Program-made: the position numbers and the translations under genes | Notes under the pieces: generated by a model | The model's input: only the letters and a program-made list of their open reading frames with translations | The model's database searches: none | What the model was told of the DNA's origin: nothing | Assembly: GCA_014728225.1 (NCBI GenBank) | Contig: WJLX01000124.1 | Coordinates: 1-50,180, forward strand | Reading direction: 5' to 3' | DNA from: Candidatus Coatesbacteria bacterium | GTDB taxonomy: Bacteria; RBG-13-66-14 | DNA: 50,180 nucleotides | Shown here: positions 2,489-49,339 of the stretch, one piece after another | Numbering within the stretch: the stretch's first letter is position 1 | How the letters are laid out: every line of letters starts with the position of its first letter

Positions 2489-2692
2489 GCTCCGCGACCC
2501 CTGAAAAACTACCGGCCGCTAACCGTCGTAAACGCTCAACCCCGCGGCGCCGGAACTGGCACGGTTTTTGCGGAGGCGCAACCGTGCCGTCGCTCGCTGC
2601 GGCGCCGAGATGCAAAAACCGTGCCAGTTCCGGCGCGCCGACGGGCAGTTGCGTTGAATCGGCCACCGGTAGTTTTTCAGGGGTCGCGGAGC
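2489..2692. repeat. Long nested palindromic element, copy L1
   Basis: Perfect 27-bp outer arms (2489-2515 and 2666-2692) enclose perfect 25-bp inner arms (2547-2571 and 2612-2636) carrying GGCACGGTTTTTGC. The centre is asymmetric: GGAGGC follows the left inner arm and GCCGAGAT precedes the right one, which defines the + orientation. It ends 25 bases before mnmG. No open frame inside looks real. Confidence 0.9.
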
Positions 2693-7812: not shown

Positions 7813-7993
7813 GCGCCGACCAGCCGCCGCCCGGTCGACGCGAACGCCCAACGGCCCGCCCGCCGGAACCGGCACGGTTTTTGCGGAAGGCGCCACGGTT
7901 CCGCCGTTCGCGGCGGCGCCGAGATGCAAAAACCGTGCCGGTTCCGGCGTTCCAGGTCGGTGTGCGGCGAAGCCGAAGGCGGCAGGTCGGCGC
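7813..7993. repeat. Long nested palindromic element, copy L2
   Basis: Inner arms 7861-7884 and 7926-7949 are a perfect 24-bp inverted repeat of the GGCACGGTTTTTGC family, with AACCGG in place of the AACTGG of L1 and the matching change in the other arm. The outer arms (7813-7828 and 7978-7993) pair in 15 of 16 positions and have a different sequence from those of L1. The centre shows + orientation. Confidence 0.85.
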
Positions 7994-18911: not shown

Positions 18912-19120
18912 GGTAAAGCGAACGCTGAAAACGACCCCCGGCGGTTGCACTGCCCAAACGAAGCCGTAGCGCCCCCGGAACCGGCACGGTTTTTGCATCT
19001 CGGCGCACGTGCGAGCGGCAGCGACGGTCCGCCTCCGCAAAAACCGTGCCGGTTCCGGGGGCTGATCCGCCGCGGTCCCGGGGGTAGCGGGAGGCGGTCG
19101 TTTTCAGCGTTCGCTTTACC
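18912..19120. repeat. Long nested palindromic element, copy L3
   Basis: Perfect 25-bp outer arms (18912-18936 and 19096-19120) containing GCTGAAAACGACC enclose perfect 26-bp inner arms (18971-18996 and 19037-19062) with GGCACGGTTTTTGC. The centre reads ATCTCGGCG then GCCTCC, the reverse of L1, so this copy is in minus orientation, the same strand as dnaG, which starts downstream of it. Confidence 0.9.
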
Positions 19121-26780: not shown

Positions 26781-26967
26781 CCGCCCGCCCCCTGAAAACG
26801 ACCACAGCAGCTATCAACGTGGCCGCGACCGGAACTGGCACGGTTTTTGCGGAGGCGGCCCGTTGTCATCGGTTCAACGGTCGCCGAGGTGCAAAAACCG
26901 TGCCAGTTCCGGTCGCATCAAGTCGAAGAGCGCGGTTCTCGGCTGGTCGTTTTCAGGGGGCGGGCGG
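26781..26967. repeat. Long nested palindromic element, copy L4
   Basis: Perfect 24-bp outer arms (26781-26804 and 26944-26967), with CCCCTGAAAACGACC, enclose perfect 26-bp inner arms (26825-26850 and 26891-26916) with GGCACGGTTTTTGC. Plus orientation. It starts two bases after the PHP gene stop and lies upstream of hemW. The remaining 166 bases to hemW show nothing clear. Confidence 0.9.
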
Positions 26968-41153: not shown

Positions 41154-42401
41154 GTGAAAAAGACCCAGCTTCTCATCCTGTTGACGATAACCGCGGTCGG
41201 AGCCAACTTCGGTCCTCAACTGCCCTTCTATTCGGGAGCTCCGGTTGAAGCCTGGCGACTCGAGGAGTATCTGTCCCGTTGGAAGTGGCCGCAGAGCGAG
41301 AACGAGAGCATTCAGCTGGTGAAGGAGGAGGTTTCGATATGGTTCGCGGCGCGCCGTGATAATTTATGTAGGGTAGGACTGGATGCAACCTGCCTCTACC
41401 GGAACCTGACCGACCAGCACCACGGCGTCAGACTGGCCCTGCCGTATTATGAACCCTATTACGGAGACGAGATAGCCGTTTACCTGAAGGACGGCGTCGA
41501 CTAGTAAAACGTCGATTTTACGATCCACGGCGACGATGATGAATACTGCTACGCCGTATGGAATGTCGAGCTGCCGCCGCACGGCGATGTCAGCGTCCGC
41601 CTGGTGGGACCGTTGAGCGGTATGGGCGGCATCCTCGGCATGAAACACGGACTCTGGGGGTTGCCCGTCGATGAATGCTACTATCCGGCGCTAGATGTAG
41701 CCGTGGACAGCTACGACCTCGCACCGGGTTCATACTGGGCCGGGGCCGTCGAGCGCGTCGAGTTGAGGATCGATTTTGAAGACTGGCCCTGGGAGAGTCT
41801 GATTGAGGCCGACGGCGACCCGTAGATCATCATGCCGGAACCGTCCCGAACGGCGGAGGTGGAACTGGAGGCCGGCGGCTTTTCTTTACGGCTCGATGAC
41901 TATGAAGCGCAGGTCGACGAACGGACGGAGGTCGACGTCTATCGCTTTTTCTACGAGTGGCCCGAGGGGTACGATCCCCGCACTCATCACCGTGCGTCTA
42001 CGACCCTGGTCGAGTCCGTCGGGGACCCCTTCCGCCTGCACGCCGTCCACGCCGACGACAATGATCCATCGACCTGCTGGTACGAGGGCGCTCCGGGCGA
42101 CGGCGTCGGCGAGTGGCTGGAGTACTCCTGGGAGCGACCCCGAGAATTCAGCGGCCTGACGATAATCAACGGCTATGCGGCCAGCGAAGAGCTCTTCGAC
42201 GGCAACGCCCGTCCGGCCCGGCTGCGCCTGGACTACTCGACGGGAAAGTCCGAAACCATCGAACTGGAAGACACCTTGAACCCCCAAAGCTTTGAGCTGC
42301 GCCCCGGCGGTGGGGTCGACCGGGTCAGGATGACCATCGAGGCGGTTTACCCGGGCGATCACTGGGAGGATTGCTGCCTGGCCGAGGCGCGGTTTGAATG
42401 A
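41154..42401 (+). pseudogene. Stop-interrupted secreted protein with C-terminal discoidin/NADase-type glycan-binding domain
   Basis: A single frame of about 415 codons from GTG at 41154, interrupted by TAG-TAA (41502-41507) and TAG (41823-41825) but with no frameshift. The N-terminus has a signal-like segment (LLILLTITAVGANF). The last ~150 residues match a discoidin-like domain of the NADase-type glycan-binding kind: STCWYEGAPGDGVGEWLEY, FSGLTIINGYAAS, LRLDYSTGKSETIEL and a VYPGDHWEDCCLAEARF end. TAA rules out simple amber recoding, so a recent pseudogene is the best call. Composition is slightly less GC-rich than its neighbours. Confidence 0.75.
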
Positions 42402-43366: not shown

Positions 43367-43464
43367 TGGGGGAAGCTAGTGGGAATCGAACCCACCTGGG
43401 ACCGGGTTAGGGCCCCACAACGGATTTGAAGTCCGCGAGGCTCACCAGACGCCTGCTAGCTTCC
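43367..43464 (-). tRNA. selC: tRNA-Sec (anticodon UCA)
   Basis: Minus-strand cloverleaf. An 8-bp acceptor (GGAAGCTA with TAGCTTCC) and 5-bp T-stem (GTGGG, TTCGATT loop, CCCAC) give the 8+5 plan of bacterial tRNA-Sec. The anticodon arm CGGACTTCAAATCCG carries UCA. The long variable arm pairs TGGGGCC with GGTCCCA. CCA is encoded (43369-43367). The mature length of 95 plus CCA fits selC. The base before CCA is C rather than the more usual G. It lies 38 bases after selB on the same strand. Confidence 0.95.
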
Positions 43465-43501: not shown

Positions 43502-45484
43502 TCACGCAAGCCCTGGGTCGAGGGGGTCAAAACGGCCCCGACCGGCGTCCAACAGCCGGTGACTACCCGAGCGGCGGTCCGTCATCCCGGCCTCGTAGAG
43601 GTGGTCGAGGAACTGGGTGGCGAACTTGCGCGACAACCCGACGGCGTCCTTGAAGTCGGCCACCCGCAGCTCCCCGCCGTCCTCGAGCTCATCGAGCACC
43701 CGGCGGCGCAGCTTGCGGTAGATCGCGGCGGGCCAAAGGTAGACCTCGGTCAGCAGCGCCGCCTCGCCCACGGCCCGCAGATAGTGGGCCGCCTCGATGA
43801 CGCGCTCCGGTGAGCGGTTGAGCTCAACGGCGGCCTCGGGCAGCAACAGGGCGGGATCGCTCACCCGCAGAAGCCCGCGGAGCTCCTCGACGACGTCCAG
43901 GAGCTTATTCGGCGGAGCGCCCTGGGGAGCCGGGGCGTAAGCCGAGCCGTAGCGCAGCAGCGAGCCGCGCTCGAGAAGCTCCTCGACGGCCCCGGACAAC
44001 AGGCCGTCGTCGACCTTCTTGTCGCGCAGCAAGGCTTTGATTTGACCCCGATCCAGCGGTTGATAGGGCAGGTGTTTCTGCAGGAAACGAGCGAGACCAC
44101 GAGACAGTTTATCCACGACCTCGGTGCGCCAGCGCGGGTGCAGCCAGCGCTCGCCACCCAGATGGACGACCCGGTCCCGCTCCGCCGACTCCGCCAGGAG
44201 AGACTTGACGTAACCGGGCATGAGTCCCTCGCGACGGGCGATATCGGCGGCGGTCAGCGCCTTGTCGGGCAGGGGGTTGTGCTTGAGCCACAACAGCGGC
44301 GCCGTGGCGTCGTCGGCGCTCTCGAGCTCGCCCAGGGCGGCGCGGTAGCTGGAACGGCTGCGACGATGGCGCTGAGCAAGGGGATCGATCACCCGGCCGC
44401 CGGCCACGGTGCGCGGCGGGCTGGGCACCCGCAGGATGAAGCGGTCCCCGCGGGCGAAGACCAGGGGGCGGCGCAGCTCGAGCTGGGCCAGGCAGTCCCC
44501 GCCCGGCTTGAGCTTACCGCCCTCCAGCAGAACCACCCGGCAGAGCTCCTCCCGGGTACCGGCGAGGAGCTTCAGCTCGCTCAGGTCGGCCAGGGGCTTG
44601 CTGGAGTTCAGCAACCGCAGGCGGACGTCCAGCCGCCGCGTCGCGGCGAAGCAGCCCGGGGCGATGAGTTCGTCGCCCCGCTTGACGCCGCGCTTGGGCA
44701 ACCCGGAAAGGTTGACGGCCACCCGGCGACCGGCCGCGACCACCTGACGGTCACGCTGGTTGGTCTGCAGGTTGCGCACCCGGCCCCCGGCGCCGCCGGG
44801 CAGCAGCTCGACCTCGTCGCCGACGGCCAGGCTGCCCGAGCGAACCGCTCCGGTAACTACGGAACCAAAACCCTCGACGGTGAAGGCGCGGTCGGCGGCC
44901 AGGCGGAAGGCCGCTCCGGGACGCTCCAGACGCTTACAAGACGAGGCGACGGTGAACAACCGCTCCCGCAGCTCCTCCAAGCCGACGCCGGTCCTGGCGC
45001 TGGTCCGCACCACGGGCGCGCCCTCGAGCACCGTGCCCGTGAGCTGCTCGCGCAGCTCCTCAGCCACCAGCTCCAGCCACTCCGGATCCTCGATCAGGTC
45101 GACCTTGGTCAGCGCCACCACCCCCGGCGGTCGCGTCCGGCGCTCCAGCAGCAGATCGAGAATTTCGAGATGCTCCCGACTCTGGGGCATCAGCCCCTCG
45201 TCGGCGGCCACCACGAACAACACGGCGTCGAAGCCCGTGGCTCCGGCGACCATCTCCCTGACCAAACCCTCATGGCCGGGGACGTCGACGATGCCCAGTT
45301 CGCCCTCCGGCGTCTGCAGGAAAGCGAAACCCAGGCGGATCGAGATGCCACGACGGTGCTCCTCGTCGAGGCGGTCCGGATCCGTACCCGTCAACGCCTC
45401 GATCAGCTTGCTCTTGCCGTGGTCAACGTGGCCGGCGGTGCCGATGATCAGGCCTAGTTCTCGCGGTTGTTCCTGCTCGCTCAT
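43502..45484 (-). CDS. selB: Selenocysteine-specific elongation factor SelB
   Basis: A 660-residue GTPase that carries Sec-tRNA to UGA codons by binding the SECIS hairpin. The GTPase domain has GHVDHGKS (18-25), RRGISIRLGFAF, DVPGHEG and TKVD. EF-Tu-like domains II-III follow (FTVEGFGSVVTG, RNLQTNQRDRQVV). The C-terminal winged-helix repeats that bind SECIS are present (FKDAVGLSRKFATQFLDHLY near the end). The ATG at 45484 follows AGAGGAT; a longer open frame upstream runs through element L5 and is not coding. The selC gene follows directly. Confidence 0.96.
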   Translation of the reverse strand: MSEQEQPRELGLIIGTAGHVDHGKSKLIEALTGTDPDRLDEEHRRGISIRLGFAFLQTPEGELGIVDVPGHEGLVREMVAGATGFDAVLFVVAADEGLMPQSREHLEILDLLLERRTRPPGVVALTKVDLIEDPEWLELVAEELREQLTGTVLEGAPVVRTSARTGVGLEELRERLFTVASSCKRLERPGAAFRLAADRAFTVEGFGSVVTGAVRSGSLAVGDEVELLPGGAGGRVRNLQTNQRDRQVVAAGRRVAVNLSGLPKRGVKRGDELIAPGCFAATRRLDVRLRLLNSSKPLADLSELKLLAGTREELCRVVLLEGGKLKPGGDCLAQLELRRPLVFARGDRFILRVPSPPRTVAGGRVIDPLAQRHRRSRSSYRAALGELESADDATAPLLWLKHNPLPDKALTAADIARREGLMPGYVKSLLAESAERDRVVHLGGERWLHPRWRTEVVDKLSRGLARFLQKHLPYQPLDRGQIKALLRDKKVDDGLLSGAVEELLERGSLLRYGSAYAPAPQGAPPNKLLDVVEELRGLLRVSDPALLLPEAAVELNRSPERVIEAAHYLRAVGEAALLTEVYLWPAAIYRKLRRRVLDELEDGGELRVADFKDAVGLSRKFATQFLDHLYEAGMTDRRSGSHRLLDAGRGRFDPLDPGLA

Positions 45485-45503: not shown

Positions 45504-45690
45504 CGACCGCTGAAAAACGGTCGCCGGGCTGCGGCAACGGTTCCAAATCGACGGCCGGAACTGGCACGGTTTTTGCATCTCGGCGGCCGCTGATGACGAT
45601 GATAGCCGCCCGCCTCCGCAAAAACCGTGCCAGTTCCGGCTTGGCGCCTATCCGGGGTTGCCGGTTCGACGGGGGCTTTTTCAGCGGTCG
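45504..45690. repeat. Long nested palindromic element, copy L5, in the selB leader
   Basis: Outer arms of 14 bp (45504-45517 and 45677-45690, CGACCGCTGAAAAA) and perfect 23-bp inner arms (45554-45576 and 45618-45640, GGCACGGTTTTTGC). The centre reads ATCTCGGCG then GCCTCC, so orientation is minus, the same as selB. It lies between the selB promoter and start codon, so it would be transcribed as a long hairpin. Confidence 0.9.
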
Positions 45691-45715: not shown

Positions 45716-45744
45716 ATTGTACCTGGCGCGGGGCGTGGTGACAA
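45716..45744 (-). promoter_or_regulatory. selB promoter
   Basis: On the minus strand, TTGTCA (45739-45744), a 17-bp spacer and TACAAT (45716-45721). The leader of about 220 bases includes element L5. The -35 box is 11 bases from that of the divergent cyclase promoter. Confidence 0.75.
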
Positions 45745-45755
45745 ACGGGAGCCGC

Positions 45756-45784
45756 TTTACCTCACGGGGGAATGATACTATACT
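45756..45784 (+). promoter_or_regulatory. Promoter of the Sec cyclase gene
   Basis: TTTACC (45756-45761), a 17-bp spacer and TATACT (45779-45784), back to back with the selB promoter. The transcript would begin near 45791. Confidence 0.65.
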
Positions 45785-45827: not shown

Positions 45828-46922
45828 ATGTTGGATGAGGAACGGCTGGAGGCGAGGCTGGCGGAGCTGCGCAACCTGGAGATAAACGATGATTGGCTGG
45901 AGTGGTTCGGCGTTTGGCTGCGCGGGGCCGAGCCGGGTGAGTTGGCGCGCATCCGTCCGGGGGTGCTGGCCGCGGAGCTGGGCGCCGATCTGCACTACTT
46001 CCTCAAGCTGCTAGTCGGCGCGGTCAAGGTGGGTCTGCTCGATCTCCACTGGGAGCACTTCTGCCCCACCTGAACCGGGCGGATGGACGCCTCGCGCAGC
46101 CTGCGCGAGGTCCAGGGGGAGCATTACTGTCGGATGTGCGAGGCCAACTTCACCAGCGTACTGGATCAGAACGTGGCCATCACCTTTTCCTTGAACGAGG
46201 GTCTGGCCGTCGGCGGCCTGCCCGAGCCGCCGGCCAAGGCGATGCTGTCTGATGACGACACCCGGGCCGTCGAGCTGTTCACCCTGCACGCCTTCCGGGA
46301 GCTGTTTCCCGACGATGTGCTGCCCACCGACGAGAGCCTCCAGGTGGCCGACATCTCGGTTATGTTCACCGACATCCGCGGTTCGACCCAGCTCTACGAA
46401 CGCCTGGGCGATTCCCGAGCCTACCGTCTGGTGCGCGATCACTTCGCCGTATTGTTCGACGTCGTCGAGGAGCAGCGCGGGGCCGTGGTCAAGACGATCG
46501 GCGATTCAGTGATGGCGGCCTTCCGCGACCCGGTAGACGCCCTGCGCGCCGCCGTCGGTGTCCAGGGCAACCTGGCCCTGTTCAACCGGCGTCAGCGGCT
46601 CCATGAGGGTGACATCATCGTCCGCGTCGGTCTGGATCGCGGTCCGGCGATCTCGGTCAACCTCAACGACCGGCTGGACTTCTTCGGCAACACCATCAAT
46701 CGCGTTTCGCGCATCGAGCGGCTGTCCCACGGCAACGACGTCGTCTTCGGCAGTGAGCTGCAGACCGATCCCCGGGTCCAGCGCTTCCTCGTCGAGCACG
46801 GCGAGCGCCTGGCCATCGAGCGTTTCGAGCAGCGGGTCAAGGGGCTGGCGCGGCCGATCGTCGGCTTCCGTCTGACGGCGCCCCGCGAGGTGGAGTTGAC
46901 CCCGCCGCCGCGGCGGCGCTGA
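45828..46922 (+). CDS. Candidate selenoprotein: class III adenylate/guanylate cyclase, Sec82
   Basis: One continuous frame of 364 residues if UGA (46071-46073) is read as Sec82. Residues 1-78 are an alpha-helical DUF5939-like region ending LLDLHWEHF. A zinc-ribbon-like module follows: C79-P-T-U82, 18 residues, then C101-x2-C104. Family members I recall have CPxC with the same spacing. The cyclase domain has FTDIRGST (180-187) and GDSVMAAF (225-232) with both metal Asp residues, and LDFFGNTINRVSRI. Start at 45828 follows a G-rich site; ATG at 45798 is an alternative (Sec92). If UGA were a stop, translation would have to restart at 46083. Substrate (ATP or GTP) is not certain. Confidence 0.82.
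46071..46110 (+). promoter_or_regulatory. UGA codon and putative bacterial SECIS hairpin in the cyclase gene
   Basis: A perfect 9-bp stem, CCTCGCGCA (46090-46098) with TGCGCGAGG (46102-46110), has a GCC apical loop beginning with G, 26 bases past the UGA. Stem position and loop G fit the known bacterial SECIS layout. It is within the coding frame (DASRSLREVQ). Confidence 0.65.
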
Positions 46923-47025
46923 TTCGCAGGCTTTTCGGGGTTGCGGTAGATTCCCCGGGTTCGGTGAAACCACGGTTGGGGTGCGGGTATCCAATCTTAA
47001 CGAGACCAACAACCCTGGGGTGGTC

Positions 47026-48036
47026 ATGTCCCGCAGCCTGGTACCGATAACGCTCTGCCTGTTCAGCACCCTGGCCTTCAGCGCCTGCTCCATCGCCGAC
47101 GATCACGGTGTCGACGTCGATCCCCGCTATCAGCACACCAGCGAGCTGGACCCGGCGGAAATGGAGCGTCTCGTCGTCGATTGGTCCAACGGCGATATCG
47201 AGGTCCGGGCCGACGACGGCGAGACGGTCCGTCTGACCGCCGTGGGCTGGCGCGGCGGGGAGCCCCTCGAGCCTGCGGTCTGGCTGGACAAGCTGACCTT
47301 CGAGCTGGGTGAGGGTCGGCTCTTCTGTCGCTACGACCGCGAGCTGTTCCAGACCGTCGCCGTCAGTCTGCGGTTGTTGGTGCCCCGGGGCTTCAACGCC
47401 GAGATCGACACCTCCAACGGCGCCGTGACCGTCAACGGGCTCGACGGTCTGCGTGTCGATACCTCGAACGGCGACGTCCTGGTCCGGGACACGGCCGGTC
47501 CGCTCTCCGTCGACACCTCGAACGGCGAGGTAGACATCAGCCTGCTCGGCGGCCCGAGGGGTGAGATCCGCGCCGACTCCTCGAACGGCTCGGTCAAGGT
47601 CATCATCAGTGGGGACCACGACGGCGCTGTGGAGCTGAGCAGCTCCAACGGCGGTCTCGTTCTCCGCGTCGAGGGCGTCCAGCGCGGTGATGTCGTGCTC
47701 GACTCCTCCAACGGCTCACTCAACATCAGCTACGGCGGTTTCAGCGGCACCACCAGCGGCGACACCAGCAACGGCTCAATCGACGTCGTCCTGGGAACCG
47801 TTCCCGCTGGCATGGCCGTCGAGGCCGAAACGACCAACGGCGAAGTGGTCTGCGATCTCCCCGGCGCCGAGCTGCGTTCGGGCCAGGCCGGCGGCAGTAT
47901 CATGCGCAGCGGTGACGGCCCGCAGTTGCTTCTCGACACCACCAACGGCGGGCTGACCATCCGTTACGACGAGAACGCCGCACCGATAAAACCCGAGGCC
48001 GCCGCCGGTTCCACGGACGAAGAAGGAGGGGCATGA
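47026..48036 (+). CDS. DUF4097-like lipoprotein with SNG beta-repeats
   Basis: A 336-residue lipoprotein; ATG at 47026 puts the lipobox at Cys21 (LAFSAC). Residues ~120-320 consist of short beta-strand repeats, each with an SNG turn (DTSNGAVTV, DTSNGDVLV, DTSNGEVDI, DSSNGSVKV, SSSNGGLVL, DSSNGSLNI, DTSNGSIDV, ETTNGEVV), the DUF4097 adhesin-like pattern. An N-terminal part also reads DWSNGDIEV. It overlaps the next gene by four bases. Function unknown; surface or periplasmic structural role likely. Confidence 0.85.
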   Translation: MSRSLVPITLCLFSTLAFSACSIADDHGVDVDPRYQHTSELDPAEMERLVVDWSNGDIEVRADDGETVRLTAVGWRGGEPLEPAVWLDKLTFELGEGRLFCRYDRELFQTVAVSLRLLVPRGFNAEIDTSNGAVTVNGLDGLRVDTSNGDVLVRDTAGPLSVDTSNGEVDISLLGGPRGEIRADSSNGSVKVIISGDHDGAVELSSSNGGLVLRVEGVQRGDVVLDSSNGSLNISYGGFSGTTSGDTSNGSIDVVLGTVPAGMAVEAETTNGEVVCDLPGAELRSGQAGGSIMRSGDGPQLLLDTTNGGLTIRYDENAAPIKPEAAAGSTDEEGGA

Positions 48037-48836
48037 AGAAGACGATACCCCTGGTCATCGCCCTGCTTGGCGCCTTGACGGCCGGCGCGTCAACCGAGCC
48101 CGGCTGGCGAACCGAGCTCGCTGCGGCCGAGTTCGACGCCCTGCGCGTCGAGTGGGAAAACGGCCCGGTGACCATCGAACCGGGGCACGGCGCGCGGCTC
48201 GTACTCGAGCTGACCCCCTTCGCCGACGGCCTGACGCTGATCCCCAACGAGTGGCTGGACCTGTGTCGCATCGAACCCCGGGCGGGCCTGCTCCTACTGG
48301 CTTTCGAGCGCGGCGGGGAAAGCGAGCGGCTGGGGATGCGCCTGCGGGTCGAGCTGCCCCGGAGCGTCGATATCGAGGTGAAATGTGGCAACGGTGACGT
48401 CACCGTGATCACCGAGGCCGGCGATCTGGACATCGAGTTGGGCAACGGTGACATCCTGGTCGAAAACGTCAACGGCGGAATCGACGCGACCCTGGGCAAC
48501 GGCGATCTCGAGCTCGGGCTGCCTGAGGGTTACGCCGCCGAGGCCTTGGTGACCCAGGGCAACGGCGACAGTACGGTGCGCCTGGCCCCGGGCTACGCCG
48601 GTCGGCTGGACGTCGAGCTGGGCAACGGCGATATTGTCATCGAGCTGGCCGAGGTGCCGGCAAACCTGGGCCTGGAAGCCGAGAGCTCCCTCGGCGAGGT
48701 GCGGACGAACCTCGGGGGCGGGGAAGCGCGGGCCGAGCTGCTGAGCGAAAGCTTCGAGCTGAGTGGCGACGGACCGCGGATCCAGGCGGTGCTGGGCCGC
48801 GGCGATATCGAGATCAACCGCGTCGACGGCGACTGA
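48033..48836 (+). CDS. DUF4097-like secreted protein with GNGD repeats
   Basis: A 267-residue protein, ATGA-overlapped with the preceding paralogue and preceded by GGAGG. The signal peptide is standard, not a lipobox (LLGALTAGAS). The beta-repeat turns are NGD rather than SNG: CGNGDVTVI, LGNGDILVE, LGNGDLELG, QGNGDSTVR, LGNGDIVIE, and GRGDIEI at the end. The two genes are a tandem pair with different repeat variants, one lipid-anchored and one soluble. Function unknown. Confidence 0.83.
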   Translation: MKKTIPLVIALLGALTAGASTEPGWRTELAAAEFDALRVEWENGPVTIEPGHGARLVLELTPFADGLTLIPNEWLDLCRIEPRAGLLLLAFERGGESERLGMRLRVELPRSVDIEVKCGNGDVTVITEAGDLDIELGNGDILVENVNGGIDATLGNGDLELGLPEGYAAEALVTQGNGDSTVRLAPGYAGRLDVELGNGDIVIELAEVPANLGLEAESSLGEVRTNLGGGEARAELLSESFELSGDGPRIQAVLGRGDIEINRVDGD

Positions 48837-48889: not shown

Positions 48890-48899
48890 TGTTACGTGG

Positions 48900-49339
48900 G
48901 CGCGACTGTAAGCCGAATTCTGTCTCCCGTCGTGCGGTCGGGTTTCCCCTCCGACGGGACGGCGACCATCCATCTTACGCCGGGGATCGCTCCCGCGGCT
49001 CCAGCGACCTACCCGAGACGCCTGGGGCGGGCCACCCATCGTCTCCTATTTGGTCTTGCTCCGGACGGGGTTTACCGAGCCGACGCCGTCGCCGGCGCCA
49101 CTGGTGGGCTCTTACCCCACCTTTTCACCCTTGCCGGTCCGCCGAGGCGGACTTGGGCGGTCTGCGGGATCCTGGTGGATCCCCTCTCTGTGGCACTTTC
49201 CGTACGCTTGTCGCGTCCCGGGGGTTACCCGGCGTCCTGCCCTGCGGAGTTCGGACTTTCCTCGCCCCGTTAGTCGGAACCGCTTGGGCTCGTTGAACCC
49301 AGTCCGGCTCCCGGGGACGCGGCCGCCCGTCGCGCCGCA
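48900..49339 (-). ncRNA. rnpB: RNase P RNA, bacterial class A
   Basis: Minus-strand ribozyme that trims tRNA 5' leaders. Hallmarks in order: GAGGAAAGTCCGAACTCC near the 5' side, GTGCCACAGAGA, GTAAGAGCCCACC, AAACCCCGTCC with GCAAGACCAAATAGGAG, GATGGATGGTCGCC, and ACAGAATTCGGCTTACAG at the 3' end. Ends are approximate. Protein-like open frames here on both strands are shadows of the RNA. Confidence 0.95.

Follow-up and report, generated by a model that had tools for sequence, protein, structure and literature searches.

A putative selenocysteine-containing class III adenylate cyclase encoded divergently from selB in Candidatus Coatesbacteria

Results

We analyzed a 50,180-nucleotide stretch of DNA from a Candidatus Coatesbacteria bacterium (hereafter the window), which lies on contig C124 of a draft genome of 2.96 Mb in 181 contigs (G000); the phylum is small and was sampled with 14 genomes. 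On the forward strand, the gene at 45828-46922 encodes a class III adenylate cyclase with an N-terminal DUF5939 module, as judged from its Pfam matches, an orthologue in genome G002, and an AlphaFold2 model. Its frame comprises 364 codons plus a terminal TGA stop (46920-46922), and is otherwise open except for a single internal stop, the TGA of codon 82 (46071-46073), for which we propose selenocysteine (Sec, U); all other family members read have Cys at this position. The first-pass annotation had described an in-frame UGA between CPT and TG within one uninterrupted frame, and this is indeed the arrangement: the residue context is C79-P-T-U82-T-G, 18 residues upstream of C101xxC104. An ATG at 46083, 9 nt past the UGA, opens a 279-aa frame (46083-46922) that holds the whole cyclase domain. 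A standard annotation would probably place the start at this codon, and the putative sensor module would then be lost.

The cyclase gene is divergent from selB, the gene for the Sec-specific elongation factor, on the reverse strand (43502-45484; Pfam GTP_EFTU, Beta-barrel_SelB, and SelB-wing_3), and a tRNA-Sec gene with the anticodon TCA follows beyond selB on the same strand (43371-43464; 74.9 bits with Rfam RF01852, also found by ARAGORN). Consensus scans, and these only, gave two back-to-back promoter-like sites between the two genes: TTTACC-17-TATACT for the cyclase (45756-45784, forward strand) and TTGTCA-17-TACAAT for selB (45716-45744, reverse strand). The same intergenic region holds one copy (45554-45640) of a dispersed REP/MITE-like palindromic element, whose perfect inverted arms of 23 bp, GCCGGAACTGGCACGGTTTTTGC, are separated by about 41 nt. 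Four further copies occur in the window (2550-2633, 7863-7947, 18975-19058, and 26829-26912), and others lie beside selA and beside another cyclase gene of the same genome. This intergenic palindrome is framed by an outer 14-bp perfect inverted repeat, CGACCGCTGAAAAA (45504-45517 and 45677-45690). Elsewhere in the window, 41832-42401 encodes a protein with a NADase_transloc (NAD glycohydrolase translocation F5/8 type C) domain (3.1e-26).

We then examined the protein itself. Pfam matched Guanylate_cyc (2.1e-16) and DUF5939 (PF19363; 8.2e-14), the latter with a score of 51.9 bits against a gathering threshold of 22.5 bits, which places the protein in the family. The DUF5939 match covers the N-terminal half only (profile positions 27-120 of 281), as it does in the G002 orthologue, and codon 82 falls within this N-terminal part, at the second Cys of CPxC-x18-CxxC. 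AlphaFold2, run on the family alignment with Cys in place of Sec, returned a model with a mean pLDDT of 93.8 and a pTM of 0.91, in which N-terminal helices are followed by ribbon strands and, from about residue 170, by the class III cyclase domain. The motif C79-P-x-U82 ... C101-x-x-C104 (46062-46139) consists of invariant alignment columns, and its knuckles lie on model strands 71-78/84-89 and 98-101/106-109. Both sequence and model thus have the two C-x-x-C knuckles on β-hairpins that define a zinc ribbon, with U replacing one Cys; no solved zinc ribbon was among the 50 Foldseek matches listed.

The catalytic domain (46335-46880), assigned from Pfam, alignment, and structure, retains a complete set of catalytic residues, in keeping with the class III cyclase identity given at first pass. 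D182, K222, D226, D284, N291, and R295 are all present and are invariant in 21 sequences, except for one D182 variant. The two metal Asp, the adenine-specifying Lys/Asp, and the transition-state Asn/Arg of a class III adenylate cyclase are thereby accounted for, as is the fold; these are the roles that such residues have in class III cyclases. In Foldseek, the solved structure nearest to the catalytic domain among the matches listed was Ma1120 (E 3.7e-14, TM 0.87 by target). K222 and D284 align with a Lys and an Asp of Ma1120, presumably those changed in the KDA-to-EGY mutant solved with GTP. Because of this match, ATP would be the expected substrate and cAMP the expected product. The earlier suggestion of cAMP or cGMP synthesis is therefore retained for cAMP, the substrate residues being of adenylate cyclase type, and dropped for cGMP.

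By its gene content, the organism is predicted to decode Sec. In addition to tRNA-Sec and SelB, the source genome encodes SelA (365 bits) and a SelD whose gene has its own in-frame TGA (L066, contig C108). Such a selD is present in 13 of the 14 phylum genomes (L055-L067), and the Sec trait appears to be general in the phylum. Formate dehydrogenase alpha, sought in the source genome as a second selenoprotein, gave no match, and selD, a textbook case of an in-frame TGA, took its place. An in-frame TGA taken alone would be compatible with a genome-wide reassignment of TGA to Trp or Gly. However, TGA is used as a stop more often than any other codon in the window, ending 18 of 30 long ORFs including the cyclase gene, and takes part in an ATGA stop/start overlap at 48033-48036, and the alignment column at codon 82 is invariantly Cys, never Trp or Gly. 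Reassignment was rejected on the stop-codon usage in the window, and we regard its probability as negligible.

The neighbourhood of selB is weak evidence. The divergent arrangement itself is confirmed, but we rejected it as evidence for Sec, since in G002 the Cys-containing orthologue is likewise divergent from selB, with tRNA-Sec present as well. In a third genome (G003), the order tRNA-Sec, selB ... DUF4097-like lipoprotein ... RNase P appears to be kept, the last two by sequence resemblance only; no DUF5939 match was found in that genome, where another gene adjoins selB. The neighbourhood is therefore better viewed as inherited than as specific to the Sec form. In the window, the cyclase gene is followed by two tandem genes for DUF4097 (toastrack) proteins in which SNG/GNG motifs recur (46981-48036 and 48033-48836), a relative of the first of which also lies downstream of the G002 orthologue, and by a class A RNase P RNA on the reverse strand (48893-49338).

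The perfect 9-bp hairpin with a G-first loop that the first-pass annotation had placed downstream of the UGA was recovered at 46090-46110. Its arms, CCTCGCGCA (46090-46098) and TGCGCGAGG (46102-46110), form nine Watson-Crick pairs around the loop GCC (46099-46101). The stem begins 16 nt past the UGA and the apical loop lies 25 nt past it. A published model of the bacterial SECIS element allows a loop of 3-9 nt, an upper stem of 4-16 bp, and a spacing of 16-37 nt, and asks for a G at the first or second loop position and a minimum free energy of at most -7.5 kcal/mol (PMC13188914). The hairpin lies within these limits, with a stem of 9 bp, the loop GCC, a spacing of 25 nt, and a centroid energy of -19 kcal/mol, and we classify it as SECIS-like; the base after the loop G is C, versus the commoner G or U (G[G/U]).

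Since GC-rich DNA easily satisfies this simple model, we counted only stronger stems, with at least nine perfect pairs, a G as the first or second base of the loop, and a spacing of 16-37 nt. Such a stem follows 0.39% of the 33,400 window positions tested and, when the same peptide was recoded synonymously 20,000 times, arose in 0.9% of the cases. Within the cyclase gene it occurs after codons 78-85 only, and the same scan found none in selB. By the same measure, the Cys orthologue in G002 forms at most two pairs and no hairpin, and its folding energy is -8.2 kcal/mol versus -22.3 kcal/mol in the window. The folding energy of the 53-nt stretch is unremarkable for a GC-rich genome (z -0.6), and energy alone was for this reason dropped as SECIS evidence; a 66-nt stretch gave a z of -2.8. 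The recoding signal is carried by the perfect stem and its position, not by energy.

Homologues were then read at the TGA position. Cys was found in 34 of 34 other loci (20 from one reading, together with L089, L091-L102, and L035), as anticipated at first pass for the second Cys of CPxC with 18 residues to CxxC. Unrelated residues or a stop in relatives had been named beforehand as the outcome that would speak against Sec; instead, even the nearest orthologue (G002; same family, another genus; 57% identical along almost its entire length) has TGC at this codon, within the motif CPHC. The four ligand positions are invariant in a 21-row alignment (A2), in which the aligner prints Sec as C. A survey of 386 genomes gave 22 DUF5939 matches in 20 genomes, with an internal stop in the match from the window only, and a survey of the G177 phylum found more than 100 matches, spread over 64 of 393 genomes, with no internal stop. 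Within the phylum of the window, only two of the 14 genomes have a DUF5939 match, so that conservation at the lineage level rests on one orthologue. By parsimony, the loci read point to a change from Cys to Sec in the lineage of the window.

No TGA homologue from another organism, a customary but not strictly necessary support for a bacterial selenoprotein, was found among the matches in about 780 genomes. None was detected in viral contigs, genome contigs yielded one Cys relative only, and the phyla of G066, G019, and G118, groups too small for the purpose, added no case. As a point of comparison, deep-Sep accepted three families for which no TGA homologue was known elsewhere (PMC12013277). 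This sole occurrence in the family, in a draft assembly of 181 contigs and at a codon one base away from TGC and TGT, is also what would be expected if a sequencing or assembly error had altered an ordinary Cys-type DUF5939 cyclase. Such an error, however, would have had to strike one of only four Cys codons, in a Sec-decoding genome, and 25 nt ahead of the one hairpin of this kind in the gene (chance about 0.4-0.9%), a hairpin that is missing from the Cys orthologue; no internal stop occurs in any of the other DUF5939 matches, which number more than 120 and in many cases come from draft assemblies. We consider an error very unlikely.

A recent nonsense mutation, leaving either a truncated cyclase that starts anew at ATG 46083 or a decaying gene, was weighed against the codon composition and the divergence from G002. 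A single change would turn any of nine other codons in the gene into TGA, and three of these nine encode Cys, so that the fall of the TGA on a Cys position is not very improbable by chance and is not decisive alone. The location of this ATG just past the TGA, with the entire cyclase domain in the frame that it opens, would also suit a restart. Against a true stop, the remainder of the frame is undisturbed and keeps every catalytic residue, ATG 46083 has no well-placed ribosome-binding site (a GGGCGG abuts it), and the hairpin and the Sec machinery would be left as coincidences. Furthermore, codons 1-81 (pS 0.78, pN 0.32) and codons 131 onward (pS 0.58, pN 0.24) are both constrained as protein relative to G002, a pattern that speaks against a long-dead gene, although it may still be compatible with a very recent stop. 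Identity to G002 is 56% before the UGA, 35% over codons 83-130, and 63% after them; this least conserved stretch, directly after the UGA, would fit a constraint on RNA structure, although this is suggestive only. Overall, we assign a true stop a small probability.

Discussion

The best reading of codon 82 is that its UGA is read as Sec, which we hold to be very probable. The Cys column (34 of 34 loci), the Sec machinery, and the in-frame TGA of selD all support the selenoprotein proposed at first pass. The UGA form is known from one genome only, a fragmented draft assembly, and for this reason sequencing error and a true stop keep their place as alternatives.

In the mechanism that we propose for the Sec reading, SelB and tRNA-Sec would decode codon 82 as directed by the hairpin 16 nt downstream. 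Sec82 would then replace one of the four invariant Cys of a zinc-ribbon-like module between the helical N-terminus and the cyclase domain. The C79/U82/C101/C104 site most likely binds a metal, forms a C79-U82 selenenylsulfide, or both, and its redox or metal state may change the activity of the cyclase dimer. It is reasonable to infer that Sec82 may act as a metal, redox, or selenium sensor of cAMP synthesis. Since translation beyond codon 82 would require selenium, the full-length cyclase and its cAMP would be made only when selenium is available.

A more far-reaching and rather doubtful proposal is a selenium-responsive second-messenger switch, in which the cAMP level would report the selenium status. 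When selenium is present, the full-length Sec-ribbon cyclase would be produced, with a cAMP output that tracks its redox or metal state; when selenium is absent, translation would end at codon 82 or, alternatively, restart at ATG 46083 to give a cyclase in which the first ribbon half is missing.

Known selenoproteins are for the most part oxidoreductases or proteins that handle metals and metalloids. The cyclase, whose regulatory domain would carry Sec at a metal/redox site, most likely represents a new selenoprotein family. Should this be borne out, selenium and second-messenger signalling would be connected and the use of Sec would extend to second-messenger control, and the G000 and G002 genes would form a natural Sec/Cys orthologue pair bearing on what selenium adds at a Cys metal/redox site.

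The first-pass annotation knew of no selenoprotein nucleotide cyclase, and our searches agree. The term "cyclase" is absent from a 2026 inventory of 119 prokaryotic selenoprotein families (PMC13188914), from deep-Sep (PMC12013277), and from a 2022 review. Literature searches, whose scope excluded Deng et al. 2026 (groundwater selenoproteins), yielded no selenoprotein cyclase, and a search for papers on DUF5939 yielded none. As far as searched, an ordinary bacterial recoding mechanism would here serve a protein class not previously reported to use it.

The closest relatives are the DUF5939 (PF19363) plus Guanylate_cyc cyclases, represented by the 34 Cys homologues, which share the domain order, the C-x-x-C ... 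C-x-x-C motif, and the catalytic residues, whereas the window protein has Sec for the second Cys and matches only the N-terminal half of DUF5939. The mycobacterial adenylyl cyclase Ma1120 (PDB 4wp8, 5d0g) shares the catalytic fold and the substrate-specifying Lys and Asp, but has no ribbon module in the solved construct and no Sec. The CxxU thiol-redox selenoproteins, such as the SELENOW-like proteins (PMC13188914), have the same CxxU spacing, suited to a selenenylsulfide, on oxidoreductase-type folds, whereas the motif in the window is one knuckle of a four-ligand ribbon. In concept, the nearest precedent is the putative regulatory selenoprotein of the FmdB family, which, like the cyclase, has a Sec predicted within a CxxC pair. 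FmdB-family proteins are zinc-ribbon-like. The FmdB-family selenoprotein, described from the GOS metagenome with CxxU/UxxU motifs (PMC2398784, PMC13188914), is unrelated to the cyclase and has no enzyme domain, whereas the protein described here would place Sec in a second-messenger enzyme.
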